Shown here: piece after piece, positions 18,592-29,121 of the stretch
How positions within the stretch are numbered: the first letter of the stretch is position 1
Layout of the letters: each line of letters starts with the position of its first letter
Source: Halorubrum distributum JCM 10118
GTDB lineage: Archaea > Halobacteriota > Halobacteria > Halobacteriales > Haloferacaceae
Assembly (NCBI RefSeq): GCF_000337335.1
Contig: NZ_AOJN01000063.1
Location: 30,628-72,121, forward strand
Direction of reading: 5' to 3'
Length of the DNA stretch: 41,494 nt
The notes under the pieces: model-generated
What the model saw: the letters and a program-made list of their open reading frames with translations, nothing else
What the model was told of the DNA's origin: nothing
The model's database searches: none
Made by a program: the position numbers and the translations under genes

Positions 18592-18626
18592 CCGATCACC
18601 GGGTCGCCGCGTCCGATCACCGGGTC
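18592..18626. repeat. 14-bp direct repeat overlapping a stop codon
   Basis: CCGATCACCGGGTC occurs at 18592-18605 and 18613-18626. The stop codon of the binding-protein gene (18617-18619) lies inside the second copy. It could mark a small duplication or an RNA signal between the binding-protein and permease genes. There is no direct evidence for either. Confidence 0.6.
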
Positions 18627-20269
18627 ACGGTGACGCCGTCCAGCTGGACCTCCGTCGAGATCGGGTGCGAGCTGAAGCCCTCCACGACGTTGCGCACGCC
18701 GTAGGAGTTGTTCAGGTTGTACGCCGGAAGGTGGACGCGCCCCTCAAGCAGCGATGTCGTGGCGTCGATGTAGAGCTGGCGACGCTCCTCGCGGTCGGCG
18801 GACTCGCGGGCCTGCGTCAGCTTCTGCGAGGCCTCGTCGTAGCCGTGGAACGTCCCGTTCGTCACGCCCTCCGTCTCCTGGCTCAGCAGGTTGTACGCGA
18901 ACGTGTCCGGGTCCGGCGAGCCGGACCAGCCGAGGGTGTACATGTTGTAGTCGTCCTCGTTGCCGGTGACGTACGCGTCGAGGAATGTGCCCCAGTCGAG
19001 ACGCTGGACTTCGACGTTCTGGAAGCCGGCGTTCTGGAGCCCGTCGCCGATGGAGATGCCGATCTGCTCGCGCTTGTTGTCCGGCGGCACGATGATCCGC
19101 CAGTTGTAGTCCATCGGGACGCCGGCCTCCTCGAACAGCGCCTGCGCCTCCTCGAGGTCCTGGTCGTGCTGAATGTCCGACCACTCGTCGGTCGGGAAGT
19201 TCCACTCCTCGGAGATCGAGGACGGGAACGGGCTGCTCTGGCGGACGCCGGCCGGCTCGACGAAGTTCTCGACCGCCTGGTCCATCGAGACGCAGTAGTC
19301 GACCGCCTCGCGGACGAGCGGGTCGCTCGTCGGCCCCTCGTTACAGTTGAACGCGAGGTAGAAGTACCCGATACCCGGCTCCTCCGTCAGCGTGGCGTTC
19401 TGGTTCGCCTCGACCGTCTCGTACAGCTGCGGCGGGATCGACTCGATGACGTCGACGTTCCCGGTCTCCAGCTCGGTGACCCGCGTCGTCTGCTCGACGA
19501 TCGGCTCGAACTCGACCGTGCCGATCTCCGGGAGGTTGTCGCTGTCCCAGTAGTCGTCCCACCGCTCGAGCGTCGCGTAGCTCTCCGGCTCCCACTCGCT
19601 GAGCTTGAACGGCCCGGAGGTGACCGGGTCCATGTTGTACGCCTCGGTGTCCTCCTGCCGCACGGAGGCGTTGACGACGTTCCGCGCCATGGCGATCGTG
19701 AACGCGCCGTACGGGTACTTGAGGTCGAACTGCGCGGTGGTCTCGTCGATCGCCTCCCCGGTGTCGATCATGTCCACCTCGGAGGCGTTCTCGGTCTGTT
19801 CCTCGACGGGCGCCATCATCGTGTGAACGACGTCCTCGGCGGTGACCGGGTCGCCGTTCTGGAACTGGGCGTCCTCGCGGATCGGGACGATGAACCGCGT
19901 CCCGTCGCGCTCGACCGTGGGCATGTCCGCGGCGATCTTCGGCTCCAGGCTGACGCCGTCGGTGTACTCGTAGAGCCCGTCGAATATCCGCCCGGCGATC
20001 TGCGCGGACGGCACGTCGTTCATGACGACCGGGTCCATGTCGAGCGGACCCTTCGCCTGCGCGAAGAACAGGGTCGGGGCGCTGCCGCCGTCGCCGCCGT
20101 CGGAGCCGTCGCCGCTGTCGGAGCCGTCGCCGCCGTCGGAGCCGTTACCGCCGGACCCGTCGCCGCCGTCCCCGCCGCCGGCACACCCGGCCAGCAGGAG
20201 AGAGGTGCCGGCTGCCCCGCCGGCGAGAATCTTCCGTCGCGAAATGCGTTGTGTGTGTTGTCGACGCAT
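18617..20269 (-). CDS. Peptide ABC importer substrate-binding lipoprotein, canonical order (operon 1)
   Basis: A 550-residue SBP_bac_5 (cluster C) binding protein. The N-terminus has a Tat motif (SRRKILAGG) and lipobox LLAGC at Cys29, followed by a Gly/Asp/Ser linker of about 35 residues. The domain order is the normal one: DMDPVVMND, GDPVTAEDVVHT, DPVTSGPFKLSEW, FYLAFNCNEGP, then the AQALFEEAG helix, TLGWSGSPDPDTF and the final HLPAYNL. It captures peptides or similar solutes outside the membrane and delivers them to DppBC. A TATA box at 20289-20298 implies a leaderless message. It serves as the reference for the two permuted binding proteins in this window. Confidence 0.94.
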   Translation of the reverse strand: MRRQHTQRISRRKILAGGAAGTSLLLAGCAGGGDGGDGSGGNGSDGGDGSDSGDGSDGGDGGSAPTLFFAQAKGPLDMDPVVMNDVPSAQIAGRIFDGLYEYTDGVSLEPKIAADMPTVERDGTRFIVPIREDAQFQNGDPVTAEDVVHTMMAPVEEQTENASEVDMIDTGEAIDETTAQFDLKYPYGAFTIAMARNVVNASVRQEDTEAYNMDPVTSGPFKLSEWEPESYATLERWDDYWDSDNLPEIGTVEFEPIVEQTTRVTELETGNVDVIESIPPQLYETVEANQNATLTEEPGIGYFYLAFNCNEGPTSDPLVREAVDYCVSMDQAVENFVEPAGVRQSSPFPSSISEEWNFPTDEWSDIQHDQDLEEAQALFEEAGVPMDYNWRIIVPPDNKREQIGISIGDGLQNAGFQNVEVQRLDWGTFLDAYVTGNEDDYNMYTLGWSGSPDPDTFAYNLLSQETEGVTNGTFHGYDEASQKLTQARESADREERRQLYIDATTSLLEGRVHLPAYNLNNSYGVRNVVEGFSSHPISTEVQLDGVTVTR

Positions 20270-21521: not shown

Positions 21522-21920
21522 TCAGACGCCGACGCCCGCGACGAGTTCGAGCGACAGCGACACGCCCAACACGACCAGGCTCGTCACGAACGTCTTCACG
21601 TTGCGACTCACGCGCTCTTCGAACGGAATCGTTCGCTCGCGGAGTGGGGGAAGCCGCATGAGTCTGGTCTCGATGTCCCACGCCTCGTCGGTGTCGAGGG
21701 TGATGCGTTCGCGGTCACGACGCTTCGACTTGGGCTGAATGGCTAACGACCCCAGACCGAACAGCACGAACCCGACGGCGAACAGGACGTACTTCAGCGT
21801 GATCAGGCCGTCGCCGAACGCGAAGGCGACGACGGCGCAGCCCCCGACGACGGCGGCCGACGCGGCGCCGACCCAGACGGCGAACTCGCTGATCCGGTCG
21901 GCGTTAGTCGCTGTCTGCAC
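21522..21920 (-). CDS. Small membrane protein encoded at the end of ABC operon 2
   Basis: A 132-residue protein with three predicted membrane helices: about residues 13-34, 40-60 and 108-130. Between them is a charged cytoplasmic loop (QPKSKRRDRERITLDTDEAW). Its GTG start lies within the last codons of dppF, a 17-base overlap, which suggests translational coupling and a role with the transporter. The function is unknown; it could be an accessory subunit or simply share the transcript. Confidence 0.72.
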   Translation of the reverse strand: MQTATNADRISEFAVWVGAASAAVVGGCAVVAFAFGDGLITLKYVLFAVGFVLFGLGSLAIQPKSKRRDRERITLDTDEAWDIETRLMRLPPLRERTIPFEERVSRNVKTFVTSLVVLGVSLSLELVAGVGV

Positions 21921-23238
21921 GGCGCGTAAGCACGGGGTCTACGTCCTCGTACTCGTCGGCGTGCCGGTGACAGTAGCTGTACCGACCCGACGCGGACACC
22001 TCGTACATCTCGGGCTGTTCGTCGTCACAGACGCTGGCGAACTCCTCGTAGAGGTGTTCTTGCGCCTCCGTCGGCCGCCCCCGTTTGACCATCTTGACCG
22101 CGGTCTGTATCTCCTCGTCGACCCGCTCCGGCACCTCGATGCCGTCGAAAGTGTCTGCCCTGCTCTCTTCGATGTCGTCGAACCGGTCGAATCGGTCGAA
22201 CCGCCGCCTGACTCGGTCCCCCGTCGAGAGCGCGATGCGAGCGCGTTCGCGGACGACCTCCCTGAACTGCTCGATCCCCTCCCAGAGGTCCTCGTCGAGG
22301 TCGGCGTACGACTCCGGTTTGATCTTCGCCGGGCAGCGCGTCGAGAGGTTACAGCCCGCCGGCGCGTCGCTCGGACTCGGGGGCGTCCCCGAGAGCGTTA
22401 TCCGGCGAGACGTCTTGGTCGGGTCTGGCTCTGGAATCGCAGACAACAGCGACTGCGTGTACGGGTTCGACGCGTCCGCGAACAGTTCCTCCGCTTCGCC
22501 CATCTCCATGATCTTCCCGAGGTACATCACGGCGACGCGGTCGGAAATGTACCGGACCACGGAGAGGTCGTGGGCGATGAGCAGGTAGGTGAGGTTGAAC
22601 TCCTCTTGGAGGTCCTCGAGGAGACTGATGATCTTCGCCTGAACGCTCACGTCGAGCGCGGAGACCGGCTCGTCGAGGACGAGGAAGTCCGGCTCGAGCG
22701 CGAGCGCGCGAGCGATCCCTATCCGCTGGCGTTGGCCGCCGGAGAACTGGTGGGGGTACCGGAAGTAGTGTTTGTCGGGGAGACCGACCGCGGACAGCAG
22801 GTCGAGCACCCGCTCGCGGCGGTCGTTCATCGTCTTCCAGTCGTGCGCGTCGAGCGGCTCCCGAATGATCTCACCGACCGTCATCCGGTCGTTCAGGCTG
22901 GATTCGGGGTCTTGGAACACCATCTGGGCGTTCTTTCGCCACTCCTTCAGATCCTTCCCGGAGAGCGTCGTGATGTCCGTGCCGTCGTATCTGATCGAGC
23001 CCTCGGTGGCGTTTTCGAGCGCCAGCATGGTGCGCCCGAGCGTGCTCTTTCCGCACCCGGACTCGCCGACCAGCCCGACCGTCTCGCCGCGCTTGATCTC
23101 GAAGGAGACGCCGTCGACCGCCTTCACCGGCGGGTCGGCGAACATCCCGTCGCCTCCGTAGTACTTTTTCAATCCCTCGACTTCCACCAGCACCTCCGAC
23201 TCCTCGGTCGGGGGCGACTGCTCGACTGCGTTGCTCAT
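21904..23238 (-). CDS. dppF: Oligopeptide ABC importer ATPase, DppF/OppF type (operon 2)
   Basis: A 444-residue ATPase. Motifs: Walker [20 protein letters not shown], signature FSGGQRQRI, Walker [13 protein letters not shown], switch IAHDLSV. The C-terminal domain has CNLSTRCP and, after an insertion of about 90 residues rich in Arg/Asp/Glu, SVC and YCHRH. The insertion is in the same place as in the operon 1 DppF but with little shared sequence. The ATG at 23238 overlaps the dppD stop by 4 bases. The longer open frame upstream lies inside dppD and has no family match. Confidence 0.93.
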   Translation of the reverse strand: MSNAVEQSPPTEESEVLVEVEGLKKYYGGDGMFADPPVKAVDGVSFEIKRGETVGLVGESGCGKSTLGRTMLALENATEGSIRYDGTDITTLSGKDLKEWRKNAQMVFQDPESSLNDRMTVGEIIREPLDAHDWKTMNDRRERVLDLLSAVGLPDKHYFRYPHQFSGGQRQRIGIARALALEPDFLVLDEPVSALDVSVQAKIISLLEDLQEEFNLTYLLIAHDLSVVRYISDRVAVMYLGKIMEMGEAEELFADASNPYTQSLLSAIPEPDPTKTSRRITLSGTPPSPSDAPAGCNLSTRCPAKIKPESYADLDEDLWEGIEQFREVVRERARIALSTGDRVRRRFDRFDRFDDIEESRADTFDGIEVPERVDEEIQTAVKMVKRGRPTEAQEHLYEEFASVCDDEQPEMYEVSASGRYSYCHRHADEYEDVDPVLTRRADSD

Positions 23239-24323
23239 GAGTGTTCCTCCGTACTCTCCTTCGCTATTTCGACGTGTTTCTCCACGCGCGCCGTCTCGCT
23301 CAGATCGTCGGGGTACAACAGACACGCCGCCGTGTGGTCCTCGGCGTCACTGACGGCAACGTGCTGCGGCGGTACCTTCTCGCAGTCGCCGAACGCCTTC
23401 GAACACCGGGGCGCGAACCGACAGTGATCGGCCGGCTCGTTCGGCGTCGGAACCTGTCCTTCGATCGTTTCGAGCCCGTCCGCACGAGAGTGTTCGCCCG
23501 GGATAGACCGGAGCAGCGCCCGCGTGTACGGGTGATGCGGATTCCCGAACAGCTCTTCGACGGGCGCCTTCTCGACGATCTGTCCCGCGTACATCACGTT
23601 CACGCGGTCCGCGATGTCCGCGATGACTCCCATGTCGTGGGTGATGAACAGTATCGACAGCCCGCGCTCCTCCTGTAGCTCCTTCAGGAGGTCGAGGATC
23701 TGCGCCTGGATCGTCACGTCGAGCGCGGTCGTCGGCTCGTCGCAGATCAGGAAGTCGGGGTCACACGCCAGCATCATCGCGATGACGGCGCGCTGGCGCA
23801 TTCCGCCGGAGAACTCGTGCGGGTACTCGTCCAACCGACGCTTGGCGTCCGGAATGCCGACGGCTCGGAGCAGTCTCGTCGCCTCCTCGGTCGCCTCCTC
23901 GCCCGTGATGTCGCGGTTGACCGCGAGCGACTCACGGATCTGGTTGCCGACGGTGTAGACCGGGTTAAGCGACTGCTGCGGGTCCTGAAAGACCATCCCG
24001 ATCCCGCTCCCGCGGATCGACTGGTACTGCTTCTCCGAGAGGTCGGTGAGCTCCTGTCCGTCGAACGAGATCGACGACTCCGGGAGCACCTTCCCCGGTG
24101 ACTCGATCAGCCCCATGATCGAGCGGGCGGTGACGCTCTTGCCGGACCCAGACTCGCCGACGATTCCGACCGTCTCGCCGCGACCGACGTCGAAGCTCAC
24201 CGAGTCGACCGCCCGGATCGTTTCGTCGTCCGTGTAAAAGACCGTTTGGAGGTCTCTGACGGAGAGGATCGGATCCTCGCGGCCGTCCGTGGCGTCCGTG
24301 CTTGCGCTCTGTGATCGGGCCAT
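23235..24323 (-). CDS. dppD: Oligopeptide ABC importer ATPase, DppD/OppD type (operon 2)
   Basis: A 362-residue ATPase. Motifs: Walker A GESGSGKSV, FQDPQQSLNP, signature FSGGMRQRA, Walker [13 protein letters not shown], switch ITHDMGV. The C-terminal cysteines are in the compact arrangement CRFAPRCS, GDC, TAAC. The start is an ATG at 24323, or a GTG one codon earlier; both overlap the dppC stop (GTGATG), indicating coupled translation. Confidence 0.94.
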   Translation of the reverse strand: MARSQSASTDATDGREDPILSVRDLQTVFYTDDETIRAVDSVSFDVGRGETVGIVGESGSGKSVTARSIMGLIESPGKVLPESSISFDGQELTDLSEKQYQSIRGSGIGMVFQDPQQSLNPVYTVGNQIRESLAVNRDITGEEATEEATRLLRAVGIPDAKRRLDEYPHEFSGGMRQRAVIAMMLACDPDFLICDEPTTALDVTIQAQILDLLKELQEERGLSILFITHDMGVIADIADRVNVMYAGQIVEKAPVEELFGNPHHPYTRALLRSIPGEHSRADGLETIEGQVPTPNEPADHCRFAPRCSKAFGDCEKVPPQHVAVSDAEDHTAACLLYPDDLSETARVEKHVEIAKESTEEHS

Positions 24324-25873
24324 CACGCACCACCTCCGGCGGCCGCCTCCTCGCCATCGCCGGTCTCGACTTCCGGATCGATGGCGTCGCGGATCCCGTC
24401 ACCGAGGGCGTTCATTCCGGTGACGAGGAGCACGATCATCAGCCCGGGGATCAGCGAGATGTGCCACGAGGGCGACGAGACGTAGCTCTGCCCGGCCGAT
24501 ATCGCCCGTCCCCAGGCGGGCGTCGGGGGTGATATCCCCAAGCCGTTACCGAGGAACGACAGCGCCGAGAGGCTGATGATGATCCCGCCGACGGACATCG
24601 AGGCGTAGACGAGCAGGTACCCGAGGACATAGGGGAGCATGTGCTTTTGCATGATGTTCCGCGGCCGTTGGCCGTAGCTCTCCGCGGCGCGGACCCAGTC
24701 TTCCTGTGCGACCTGTAGCGCCGGGCCCCGAACCGCTCGCCACAGGAACGGCCACGTTGTGAACGCGAATATGAGCGCCAACAGGAACCCGCCGTCGAGT
24801 ACCGCCCCGAGCCACGTGTTCGCGAAGACCGCGCTCATCATTATCAGCAACAGCAGCTGTGGCACGGAGACGACTCCGTCCGCGACCGTGAGTATCCCGA
24901 GGTCGAGCGACCCGCTGTAGTACGCGGACAGCATCGACAGCGTCATCGCCACCACCGCGGCCCCCGTGATCGCCATTCCCGAGACGATCATCGTGATCCT
25001 GGCGCCGCCCATCATGAACGTGAACAGGTCGCGACCGTTCGGGAGCGTTCCGAACGGGTGGAAGCGGCCGTAGTCGTCGTAGGTCATCACGCCCACGTTG
25101 GTATCGACCGCACCCTTCGACTTCGAGTCGAAGTTGGCGTCGCCGGCGAACACCGTCTCGACCGTTCCCTCCTCCGTGAGGTACTGGATCTGGCTCTCGT
25201 CGCTGTAGGGGCTCTGGATGTTCTGACTGACCGTCGAGGGAGCCAGCGCGGACCCGAACGTCGCCATCGTCAGGAACACGACCAACACGATGATTCCGAA
25301 CTGTCCCCAACGGTGTCCACGGAGGTTGTTGACGATGTCGTCCGTCGGGGTCCAGTCGGACTCGCGGTAGTGGTCGCGGTAGACGAGCCACCCGCGGAAC
25401 GCCCAGTAGGCGGTAAAGAGCGCGTACGCCATGATGAGCGAGAACCTGAGAGCCCATGCGACCGCCGGCTGAAGCCCGAGGAAGGTGCCCTGCCACGCGC
25501 CGTTCGGGGTCTGATGCCCTTGGTTCGGGATGACTTCGCGGCTGAACAGCGTCGGCAACTCGCCGAGCGTCCCCCCCACGCTGCGGAGCATCCCGACCAC
25601 ACCGGCCTGGAAATCGGTCACGATCTGCGCCAGCCCGGGCGAGACGAACCCCACGACGATGTCGATGAGACCGGTCACTCCGATGACCAACGCGTCGAGC
25701 ATACCGACCAGGATCCCGCCCCACGTGGCGAACTCGACGGCGAGCAACACGAACATCGGAACGGCCCACCACACGAACGGCTCCGGGTTCTCCGCGATGC
25801 GGGCGGTGAGCGACAGATTATCACGGTGTGTCAGTTCCTCTCGAATCGACTCGGTGGAATGTCTATCGGACAT
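24323..25873 (-). CDS. dppC: Enlarged peptide ABC importer permease, DppC type (operon 2)
   Basis: A 516-residue permease, against about 300 for the family and 328 for the operon 1 copy. The canonical DppC core begins near residue 182 (NLRGHRWGQFGIIVLVV). It has the GRDLFTFMMGGARIT motif, the EAA loop EDWVRAAESYGQRPRNIMQKH and the DAIDPEV end. Ahead of it are about 180 extra residues with three or four hydrophobic helices (for example WWAVPMFVLLAVEF and FSLIMAYALFTAYWAF) and a segment around REVIPNQGHQTPNG. A second insertion of ~50 residues follows the first core helix (about 220-270), on the outer side. It is 1 base after dppB's stop and partners a permuted binding protein. Confidence 0.9.
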   Translation of the reverse strand: MSDRHSTESIREELTHRDNLSLTARIAENPEPFVWWAVPMFVLLAVEFATWGGILVGMLDALVIGVTGLIDIVVGFVSPGLAQIVTDFQAGVVGMLRSVGGTLGELPTLFSREVIPNQGHQTPNGAWQGTFLGLQPAVAWALRFSLIMAYALFTAYWAFRGWLVYRDHYRESDWTPTDDIVNNLRGHRWGQFGIIVLVVFLTMATFGSALAPSTVSQNIQSPYSDESQIQYLTEEGTVETVFAGDANFDSKSKGAVDTNVGVMTYDDYGRFHPFGTLPNGRDLFTFMMGGARITMIVSGMAITGAAVVAMTLSMLSAYYSGSLDLGILTVADGVVSVPQLLLLIMMSAVFANTWLGAVLDGGFLLALIFAFTTWPFLWRAVRGPALQVAQEDWVRAAESYGQRPRNIMQKHMLPYVLGYLLVYASMSVGGIIISLSALSFLGNGLGISPPTPAWGRAISAGQSYVSSPSWHISLIPGLMIVLLVTGMNALGDGIRDAIDPEVETGDGEEAAAGGGA

Positions 25874-25874
25874 A

Positions 25875-26963
25875 TTACTCACGCTCTCCAAGGCTGATTC
25901 GCGGGTCGATGTACGTGTACAGGAGGTCTTGGCTGATGTTGAAGAGGATCTGGATCACGATGAAGATGAACACGAGAGCCATCACCAGCGGGATGTCCGG
26001 CCCCAGCACCGCGCTGAAGAAGAGATTCCCGAGACCGTTGATACCGAACACCGACTCGACGAGGACGGATCCCCCGATCAACAGGTAGAACTCGCCCATG
26101 ACGACGGGCAGAAGCGGGATGATCGCGTTTCGGCCGACGTGTTTGGCGATGATCCGACGGGGTGACACGCCCTTGGCCTTCGCTGTCTCGACGTACTTCG
26201 AATTGATGCTCTCGAGCACCGCCGTCCGTCCGATCCGTACCTCGTTACCCATCGACGACGATCCGAGCACGAGCGCCGCGGGCAGTATCCATTTGAACGC
26301 GACGAACATCGGGCCGGGATTGGGTACCGGAATGAACAACAGCTCCAGGTACGGGATGCCGCTGAATATCTCCACGTTGGTGAACAGGTTGCCCAGCGCA
26401 TCGGGGGTCCCGCTGACCTGCGTCTCGACGATCGCTGTGCGGTAGAAACTGAGGGCACCACCGGCGGTGATCAGCCCGGAGATGATGACGGCGAGCCAGA
26501 AGTTCGGCATCGCGCGCCAGATGATCCCGAACCCCGAACTCGCGTAGTCGCGGAACGTGTTCGCGCGCAGGCCGGCGTACAGCCCGACCGGGACGCCGAC
26601 CCCGAGCGCGATGACGACCGACCAGAACCCGAGCCAGAGCGTCGCGGGCATCCGGTTGATGATGAGCGTGGTGACGGGCGTCTCGCGCTGGATGACCCAC
26701 GAGTCACCGAAGTCGAGCAGGAACAGGTCGCTGACGACTCGGAAGTACTGTTCCCACAAGGGTATGGGGTTTCCGGCCGAGTCGATGTAGTTCAGCGCCA
26801 TCCGGAGCTGTCGGATGTCCGCCGGCGTCGCCTGTCGACCGAGGATGCTCCCGACGGGATCGATCGGCCCGAGGTAGAGGATCAGAAACGACATCGTGAC
26901 CCCGAAGATCATCACCGGGATCGCGAGTCCTAACCGCTTGAGTATGTAGATTCCTCGATTCAT
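25875..26963 (-). CDS. dppB: Peptide ABC importer permease, DppB type (operon 2)
   Basis: A 362-residue permease with the DppB N-terminus (MNRGIYILKRLGLAIPVMIF, LYLGPIDPVGSIL), the EAA loop SKYVETAKAKGVSPRRIIAKH and the C-terminal YIDPRISLGERE. It is about 30 residues longer than the operon 1 copy because of a larger outer segment around GNPIPLWEQY and GNLFTNVEIFSGIPYLELL. First of the four tightly packed transporter genes. Confidence 0.93.
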   Translation of the reverse strand: MNRGIYILKRLGLAIPVMIFGVTMSFLILYLGPIDPVGSILGRQATPADIRQLRMALNYIDSAGNPIPLWEQYFRVVSDLFLLDFGDSWVIQRETPVTTLIINRMPATLWLGFWSVVIALGVGVPVGLYAGLRANTFRDYASSGFGIIWRAMPNFWLAVIISGLITAGGALSFYRTAIVETQVSGTPDALGNLFTNVEIFSGIPYLELLFIPVPNPGPMFVAFKWILPAALVLGSSSMGNEVRIGRTAVLESINSKYVETAKAKGVSPRRIIAKHVGRNAIIPLLPVVMGEFYLLIGGSVLVESVFGINGLGNLFFSAVLGPDIPLVMALVFIFIVIQILFNISQDLLYTYIDPRISLGERE

Positions 26964-27234: not shown

Positions 27235-29121
27235 TTACTCGCCCTGCCAGTGGTTGGCGTACCCGTCACCGCCGCCGGGGAAGACCTGCGGGGGCGTGAG
27301 GTGGTACGCGGACTCGCCGCGGCCCTTGAACACGCTCTCGACGAAGTCGTCGCGCGTCATCACGTACGCCATCGCCTTCCGGACCGGCTTGGGCACGTTC
27401 TCCATGTTGAACGCGACGTAGAACGTGTCGATGGTCGGCGTCCGCGACATGTTGACCGTCTTGTCGTTCCCGAGCGGCCCGTACGTTCCGGTCTGCTGGG
27501 CGCCGTCTTGGCTCGTCAGGTCGATGAGCCCGGGATCGAACTGCGAGGTCGGGATCCCGCCGGCGTCCGCGTTCTCGTTGAGGAACCGATTGTAGATCGC
27601 GTTCGGATCGCTGAGGATCGCGTCTTGGACGTTGTCGATCGCCGGCGCATCGCCGTGGTAGTCCCCGAACGCCGAGGCACGGAACTCGCCGCCGACGCCG
27701 GACTCCCACTGCTCGAAGACGAACGGACCGCAGCCGACCGGGTTCGTCGAGAACTCCTGGAAGGTCATGTCGCCGTCGTACCCTTCGATGTCGCCGACGA
27801 TGCCCTCGGGGACGGCCGAGAACGCCGAGTAACTGAGCACCTCGAGCGCGTAGCCGAACGGCTCGCGGAGCGTGACGGTGAAGGTGTAGTCGCCGGTCGC
27901 TTCGACGGCGACCGACTCCGGCACGACGTTCCCGTCCTCGTCCTCCTCGCGGTCGATGTTCAGGACGCTGATCGGGAAGTAGGTGTTCGTCGAGTTCGAG
28001 GACTCGACGAGCCGTCGGATCGAGTAGACCATATCGTCCGCGGTCACCTCTCCGTAGTCGCCGTGGAACTGGATTCCCTCCTTGAGGGTGAACTCGTACT
28101 CGGTGAGGTCGTCGTTCGTGGAGTAGTCCTCGATCAGGAGCGGTTCGACCTCGACCGTCCCGTTGACGTAGTTGAACGGCGCGTCGAACATGTCCATGAT
28201 CTTGGCGCCGCTCGCCGTGTTCCCCGAGGCGATCGGGTCGAGCGCGTTGAACGTCGCGGACGTCCCGTTCAGCGTGCTGCTGCCTTCGAGCCCGCGGACG
28301 GACGTGCTGGTCTTCGCCCGGGACGCGCCCATCCCGCCCGGCGGGTCGTAGTCGACTCGGTCGTACCAGAACAGGTCCTCGACGCTGTGGTACACCGGGA
28401 GCAGCGCCGCGGACTCCCAGAGCAGCTTCTCCAGCCGGAGGGTCGCGTCGCCGCGTGCGCTTGCCGCCTCGTCGGTGTTCTCCGGATTGCCCGAGATCCC
28501 CGCGAACGCCTCCGTCATCGCGCTACGGACTTGGGGGTCGGTGTAGGAGTCTTCGCTCCAGAACAGCCGTGCGCCGTTCGGCGACGCCCCTTCGGCGTCG
28601 TAAACCGTGTTGTCCGGATCGACCAGCTGCGTGAAGTTCCTGATCCCCGGGTAGTCCGCGATCCAACCGAGGGTGAACGCGTCCATCTCGCCTTTCTCGG
28701 TCCGCTCGAGGAGGGCGCCGAAGTCGGCCTTGCTGATGTTCATATCGATGTAGACCGACTCGAGGCGGGCTCGGAGCGTATTCGCGATCTCCTCCCACGC
28801 CGGCGAGTTGTACTGGAGCCAATCGAGGCTGAACCGGTTGTCGGGCCCGTACCCGGCCTCTTCCATCGCCGCTCGGGCCTCCTGGATCCGGTTCTCGTTC
28901 GCTCCGTACGGGTACGAAGACGGGAGTTCCAACTCGCCGTCGTCTCCGTCTCCGCCGTCGTCTCCGTCTCCGCCGTCGGATCCGTCCATTCCGTCTTCGC
29001 CGTCGGATCCGTCTCCGCCGTCGCCGCCGTTCCCGGAACAGCCCGCGATGCTAGCCGTGAGTGCCGACGCTCCAGTCACTCGGAGGAACTGGCGCCGTTT
29101 GAAATTGTCTTTGTCAGACAT
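27235..29121 (-). CDS. Circularly permuted substrate-binding lipoprotein of peptide ABC operon 2
   Basis: A 628-residue SBP_bac_5-type binding protein in permuted order. Residues 1-28 hold a Tat motif (KRRQFLR) and lipobox SIAGC (Cys28), then a Gly/Asp linker to about 63. Next come elements that normally close the family: PYGANENRIQEARAAMEEAG (72-90), DAFTLGWIADYPG (147-159) and LLPVYHS (240-246). After a short joint near 277-290 come the elements that normally open it: FNALDPIASG (291-300), FTLKEGIQFHG and VTADDMVYS (344-367), NPVGCGPFVFEQW (460-472) and FYVAFNMENVPKPVRKAMAY (567-586). The protein ends at FPGGGDGYANHWQGE, where a normal protein would continue into PYG. All segments are present, so it should fold and bind, with the lipid anchor on a different part of the protein. 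Confidence 0.9.
   Translation of the reverse strand: MSDKDNFKRRQFLRVTGASALTASIAGCSGNGGDGGDGSDGEDGMDGSDGGDGDDGGDGDDGELELPSSYPYGANENRIQEARAAMEEAGYGPDNRFSLDWLQYNSPAWEEIANTLRARLESVYIDMNISKADFGALLERTEKGEMDAFTLGWIADYPGIRNFTQLVDPDNTVYDAEGASPNGARLFWSEDSYTDPQVRSAMTEAFAGISGNPENTDEAASARGDATLRLEKLLWESAALLPVYHSVEDLFWYDRVDYDPPGGMGASRAKTSTSVRGLEGSSTLNGTSATFNALDPIASGNTASGAKIMDMFDAPFNYVNGTVEVEPLLIEDYSTNDDLTEYEFTLKEGIQFHGDYGEVTADDMVYSIRRLVESSNSTNTYFPISVLNIDREEDEDGNVVPESVAVEATGDYTFTVTLREPFGYALEVLSYSAFSAVPEGIVGDIEGYDGDMTFQEFSTNPVGCGPFVFEQWESGVGGEFRASAFGDYHGDAPAIDNVQDAILSDPNAIYNRFLNENADAGGIPTSQFDPGLIDLTSQDGAQQTGTYGPLGNDKTVNMSRTPTIDTFYVAFNMENVPKPVRKAMAYVMTRDDFVESVFKGRGESAYHLTPPQVFPGGGDGYANHWQGE

Follow-up and report, generated by a model that had tools for sequence, protein, structure and literature searches.

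The window analyzed here, a stretch of 41,494 nucleotides from Halorubrum distributum JCM 10118, contains two genes for substrate-binding proteins (SBPs) of the SBP_bac_5 family with permuted chains, designated P1 and P2, and a paralogue in canonical order (Table 1). The P1 open reading frame was confirmed at its position and begins with ATG. P1 has the features of a Tat lipoprotein, with RR at residues 9-10 and the lipobox SIAGC at Cys28, from which export and lipidation are predicted. Additionally, it fits an importer of the Opp/Dpp type, as it is encoded together with OppB/OppC permeases and OppD/OppF ATPases. The OppC-type permease carries a long part N-terminal of its permease domain, and its orthologues align over approximately 480-530 residues.

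Table 1. Features of the window and the canonical/permuted gene pairs used for comparison (SBP, substrate-binding protein; aa, amino acids).
Feature	Position	Strand	Basis
Canonical-order SBP_bac_5 paralogue, comparison	18617..20269	-	Pfam, doubled HMM
OppF-type ATPase, 473 aa; completes the P1 transporter set	21904..23325	-	sequence
OppD-type ATPase	23235..24326	-	profile and orthologous loci
Cognate OppC-type permease, 522 aa, long extension at the N-terminus	24323..25891	-	profile and orthologous loci
Cognate OppB-type permease, 362 aa	25875..26963	-	adjoins SBP in orthologous loci
P1, type A circularly permuted SBP_bac_5 lipoprotein, 628 aa	27235..29121	-	ORF, Pfam, phmmer, BLASTP, doubled HMM
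P1 twin-arginine signal and lipobox, residues 1-28 (RRQFLRVTGASALTASIAGC, lipid Cys28)	29038..29121	-	sequence
P1 Gly/Asp-rich linker behind the lipobox, residues 29-63	28933..29037	-	sequence
P1 canonical C-terminal part, residues 66-274, PYG/EAGY helix first	28300..28926	-	matches L053 404-602
P1 new junction, residues ~262-282, old C-terminus into old mature N-terminus	28276..28338	-	BLASTP; dN/dS
P1 canonical N-terminal part, residues 275-628	27238..28299	-	matches L053 ~50-400
P2, second permuted SBP_bac_5, type C, 636 aa	37260..39170	+	profile, BLAST-type matches, doubled HMM, AlphaFold model
PAP2-family phosphatase gene, downstream of P2	39167-40033
Family E pair, permuted L082	G013:C1
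Family E pair, canonical L004	G000:C39
Family F pair, permuted L154	G011:C8
Family F pair, canonical L005	G000:C48

An earlier note on this DNA had claimed that the two halves of P1 stand in swapped order, and the Pfam, phmmer, BLASTP and doubled-HMM results all bore this out. In Pfam, residues 324-621 of P1 corresponded to SBP_bac_5 profile positions 1-258 with a score of 183.4 bits against a cut-off of 32.4, and a profile search of the genome placed the end of the profile (257-359) upstream of its start within the P1 reading frame. The phmmer comparison with Escherichia coli DppA (1dpp) aligned residues 298-615 with positions 20-316 of the chain and residues 80-163 with positions 329-415, the latter piece being weak by itself. 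BLASTP against a canonical protein from Halorussus ruber (L053) matched residues 263-624 to 38-400 with an identity of 47% (E 7e-115) and residues 69-274 to 404-602 with an identity of 39% (E 1e-44). The outcome that would have refuted the permutation, a match of the N-terminal half of P1 to the usual N-terminal half of the family, was not obtained. The canonical L053 chain is broken between residues 400 and 404, with approximately three residues missing at the cut, which agrees with the proposal that P1 begins at the PYG/EAGY helix and stops just before it; the cut lies immediately before the YPYGYN...EEAGYG helix of the canonical chain. The C-terminal end of P1 reads YANHWQGE, and no signal remnant was present at the new junction.

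For the doubled HMM, 21 canonical haloarchaeal proteins were aligned and the resulting HMM of 499 positions was joined to itself, such that a canonical protein fills one copy and a permuted protein spans from a position x in the first copy to x in the second. P1 aligned without a break from model position 303 to 795 (296 on the second copy) over residues 87-631 of its stop-to-stop reading frame, and its score of 372 bits compared with 256 and 105 bits for the separate halves. The paralogue in the window, which had been taken as canonical, filled one copy in normal order (1-498), as did each of the canonical proteins left out of HMM building (L054-L057) fill one copy. At the level of sequence, P1 therefore fits the definition of a circular permutant, in which both parts are homologous to one parent, are swapped and contain nearly everything once.

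The permutation of P1 proved not to be a single case. The earlier note was right about P1, but it overlooked the second permuted SBP in the same window and the commonness of such proteins with several cut sites. Across 17 haloarchaeal genomes, 33 of 83 SBP_bac_5 genes were permuted (approximately 40%), comprising 26 of type C, three of type A, two of type D, one of type E and one of family F. Seven of these genomes belong to one genus, so the counts are not independent. On the doubled HMM, the cut fell at model positions 297-303 in type A, approximately 322-334, past the helix, in type C, approximately 415-424 in type B and approximately 401-438 in type E. Family F is cut close to type A but belongs to another subfamily, and the type D proteins L139 and L148 are possibly cut at the site of the L086/L133 group and not at one of their own. 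The idea that the cut is unique to the P1 family was dropped, as other SBP families are also permuted.

In P2, the cut lies after the EAGY helix, and a Gly/Asp-rich stretch (residues approximately 206-242) stands between the old C- and N-parts. This stretch resembles an old lipoprotein linker; it may have been left over from one, or it may have been inserted later. The AlphaFold model of P2 had a pLDDT of 69, and its residues 218-609 superposed on DppA 1-346 with a Z-score of 18.6; the counterpart of DppA 347-507 must therefore lie at the front of P2. Type C is widespread in Halobacteria, with at least 49 genomes showing one junction-crossing alignment among the matches listed.

A restriction of permutation to haloarchaea, which we had considered, was overturned by tblastn searches of plasmids, which revealed alphaproteobacterial cases, and by one genome outside Halobacteria (G467). 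The type C order was found in Ketogulonicigenium, Maritalea, Nitratireductor and Roseomonas. The alphaproteobacterial SBPs L207, L208, L242 and L243 have the type C order, lie beside their own ABC transporter genes and are annotated as ordinary SBPs. In Neorhizobium galegae VafX2, a family-5 SBP (L244, 2432-4085) is annotated as two genes, a hypothetical protein and an SBP; the pattern resembles that of a permuted gene interrupted by a frameshift. The G467 protein (L245, G467:C2), from the same phylum but not from Halobacteria, was strongly permuted (332 bits on the doubled HMM) and nested among canonical proteins; its permutation is probably a separate event.

In the tree, the type A proteins grouped together as one clade (100/100), nested within the canonical DppA-like proteins. 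A single clade of types A and B was rejected (p-AU 6e-79), and a single origin of type B was not (p 0.44). A canonical-order protein (L130, G013:C1:74866-76083) was placed among the type B rows with weak support, which could reflect two origins of type B or reversion to the canonical order. The main type C clade (99/98) takes in the Alphaproteobacteria. The D/L086 group and the G467 protein lie outside it among canonical sequences, and a common origin of all these permuted rows, 27 in total, was rejected (p-AU 0.004). Type E was nested among canonical proteins. Judging from these sequence trees, with type E and family F counted in, we would expect approximately seven origins of permutation, of which we defend five, because the deep branches are long.

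Recent permutations were observed in families E and F within the genus of the window. In family F, the permuted L154 matched the canonical L005, from the genome that holds the window, over the signal region (1-85 to 6-85, 73%) and then in swapped order, with residues 89-327 corresponding to 415-669 (62%) and residues 334-658 to 91-415 (66%). Across 52 genomes of the genus, the family was permuted in 19 and canonical in approximately 13, and no genome among the 52 was seen with both forms. The set of neighbouring genes (permease, permease, ATPase, ATPase) did not differ between the canonical genomes G000 and G103 and the permuted genomes G147 and G065. It was largely shared by two more genomes with the canonical form (G152, G278) and two with the permuted form (G011, G027), in which rough ORF calling had fused or skipped single genes. 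When the halves of the permuted rows were restored to canonical order, these rows formed one clade (100/100) within the canonical ones, with canonical L176 from G259 as sister (100/100). In family E, the last 55-60 residues of the canonical relatives were relocated to the front of L082 (E 1e-17 to 1e-10), and the rest of L082 showed 56-61% identity to them; the loci of G013 and G000 were syntenic. The full canonical protein was present in 25 genomes of the genus, and 10 genomes matched only over residues approximately 88-503, as the permuted G013 does. Only G013 was verified in full; the nine other genomes probably also carry the permuted form.

Duplication followed by fusion and trimming, and fission followed by fusion, are both accepted models for circular permutation, and the former predicts a fused tandem intermediate (PMC3320104). 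We regard tandem duplication, fusion and trimming as the likely origin of the permuted genes. For P1, the SBP gene would have been duplicated in tandem and fused in frame, after which the second signal peptide, and next the front of the first copy and the tail of the second, would have been lost. In G002, we observed one ORF (L153/L251, G002:C1, approximately 2362605-2365421) with one Tat-type signal, two full head-to-tail SBP_bac_5 domains, the second without a signal, and a dockerin-like tail; it is likely a fused duplicate. This tandem protein belongs to another subfamily and therefore shows only that such fusions occur, and for type A no intermediate came to light. Fission of the gene and rejoining of its halves in the other order is equally an accepted model (PMC3320104), and the two-gene region of N. 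galegae can be read as a split gene, although a frameshift is the simpler reading. We nevertheless consider this route unlikely, as the haloarchaeal genomes surveyed showed no complete separate half-genes (without a systematic search), two SBP domains fused head to tail behind one signal do exist, and the parental signal and linker are kept in the permuted proteins, as evident from the signal region shared by L154 and L005.

We hold with high confidence that P1 is a Tat-type lipid-anchored SBP of an oligopeptide/dipeptide-type ABC importer in which the SBP_bac_5 fold has been circularly permuted in nature. In DppA, both termini lie in domain I, and domain III covers approximately residues 262-478. 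From this general knowledge of DppA, domain III contains every one of the SBP cuts, and the distance between the old termini can be bridged by a short loop. The P1 chain starts at the domain III helix (approximately residue 400 of the canonical protein), continues to the old C-terminus, passes through the short loop to the old N-terminus and ends just before the helix. P1 is inferred to fold as a normal two-lobed binder. The AlphaFold model of P1, built with 26 near-orthologues, was poor (pLDDT 55) and gave only partial matches to OppA and DppA chains, so the fold assignment rests on sequence and partial structural matches; Foldseek and VIA-align seem bound to sequence order and align one part at a time.

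The lipid anchor had been predicted to be attached at another point of the fold, and this follows from the sequence, in which the domain III helix comes directly after the lipobox and linker. P1 would accordingly be tethered by lobe 2 (domain III) and not by lobe 1, although no localisation data are available, and any effect of the shifted anchor on anchoring, transport or permease docking is inferred, not shown. P1 is also presumed, in the absence of binding or transport data, to pass peptide-like substrates to its own OppBCDF-type transporter. We argue by analogy with families E and F, whose operons are unchanged, that a transporter can work with a permuted SBP in place of the canonical one; on the same analogy, with canonical and permuted SBPs in the same operons, the function of P1 would survive the permutation. 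A more tentative and, in our judgement, rather doubtful proposal is that haloarchaeal SBPs were re-cut repeatedly because this is useful, with shifts of anchor and termini in domain III altering tethering and permease docking and Tat export easing the re-cutting. If true, permutation would be an ordinary selected route of change in the SBP family and not a rare accident. Tat export of a folded protein could make permutation easier; Tat export as a requirement was weakened, as the permuted Maritalea protein has an ordinary Sec-looking signal in its sequence.

The permuted proteins could instead be substrate sensors or receptors and not transport components. The gene downstream of P2 encodes a PAP2 phosphatase; in Haloferax gibbonsii, the gene for a relative of P2 (L209) has such a neighbour as well, and no permease gene adjoins it. 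However, type A genes stand ahead of their own permease and ATPase genes, and in families E and F a canonical SBP is swapped within an unchanged transporter operon, which makes the sensor reading very unlikely. In the P1-orthologue loci with enough sequence, the SBP, permease B, permease C and ATPase genes follow in that order.

We give still less credence to P1 being a chimaera, in which parts from different SBP paralogues were joined by recombination. Haloarchaea contain many SBP_bac_5 paralogues, and the C-part of P1 is somewhat less conserved against canonical relatives (38-45%) than the N-part (47-49%); the best canonical matches of both halves nevertheless fall in the same DppA-like set, and the pieces of families B, E and F match one and the same canonical protein. 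Families A, B, E and F are therefore not chimaeras of distant paralogues, since both pieces match the same canonical subfamily; the C-part of type C is too diverged to tell.

The search for orthologues in other haloarchaea, which had been proposed as a check, returned colinear orthologues (58-100%) in 20 of 292 sampled Halobacteria genomes, in three families; some of these genomes were assembled in few contigs. Beyond this sample, orthologues were present in named organisms (Halonotius, Halapricum, Halorhabdus, Halolamina, Haloquadratum and Halobacterium salinarum DSM 3754), and one independent MAG also has the swapped order. The earlier claim of a permutation rather than a truncation or duplication was upheld: the doubled HMM revealed each part once, the best canonical relatives of both halves lay in the same DppA-like subfamily, and the order was inverted in every orthologue, which ruled out the other two readings. 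P1 is under purifying selection, with dN/dS of 0.13-0.21 (NG86, against three orthologues) and 0.17-0.28 across junction residues 255-295. Faulty assembly or sequencing, or rearrangement of a gene in decay, would be conceivable in a draft genome of 68 contigs, in which the window lies on one of 108 kb. This reading is refuted almost beyond doubt by the colinear orthologues in independent genomes, including the MAG and named isolates, by the low dN/dS and by the conserved operon.

No description of a permuted SBP_bac_5 protein was found in the open-access literature, and no solved chain in the permuted order was found in the PDB by sequence. For L208 and L207, the C-terminal part mapped to the N-terminal part of PDB chains among the matches listed. 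The public records inspected name the permuted proteins only 'ABC transporter substrate-binding protein'. What is new is likely the re-cut chain, with family and likely job unchanged. Domain annotation conceals the chain order of approximately 40% of the sampled haloarchaeal SBP_bac_5 genes. Natural circular permutations are mostly ancient and met one at a time, and here a single fold underwent approximately seven permutations with several different cuts, most of these events within one class of organisms. The canonical and permuted forms at the same operon position in one genus (two cases) make origin, fitness cost and mechanics testable in a culturable group, and they show a protein re-cut in evolution while keeping its transporter place.

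Compared with known proteins, P1 resembles the members of Pfam PF00496 (SBP_bac_5, cluster C, with DppA, OppA and NikA) in family, motifs, lipoprotein signal and OppBCDF-type operon, but its chain is rotated to start near DppA residue 329 and end near 316; it lacks the canonical chain order, which is usual but lies outside the definition of the family. Its closest canonical relatives are haloarchaeal DppA-like SBPs of Halorussus and others (L031, L032, L035, L036, L039 and L053), to which its halves show the 39% and 47% identity given above with no large part absent; in these proteins the order is normal and the signal and linker run into a domain I strand, unlike in P1. Laboratory circular permutants of binding proteins, made as biosensors, demonstrate that such folds tolerate new termini, but they are engineered and belong to other binding-protein clusters, whereas P1 is natural. 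Natural permutants of the swaposin type (PMC3320104) show the same relation between chains, and duplication, fusion and trimming is the route proposed for them too; in contrast to swaposin, the haloarchaeal case concerns a secreted, lipid-anchored ABC-importer subunit that was permuted several times with different cuts, on two occasions in a single genus with the operon conserved.
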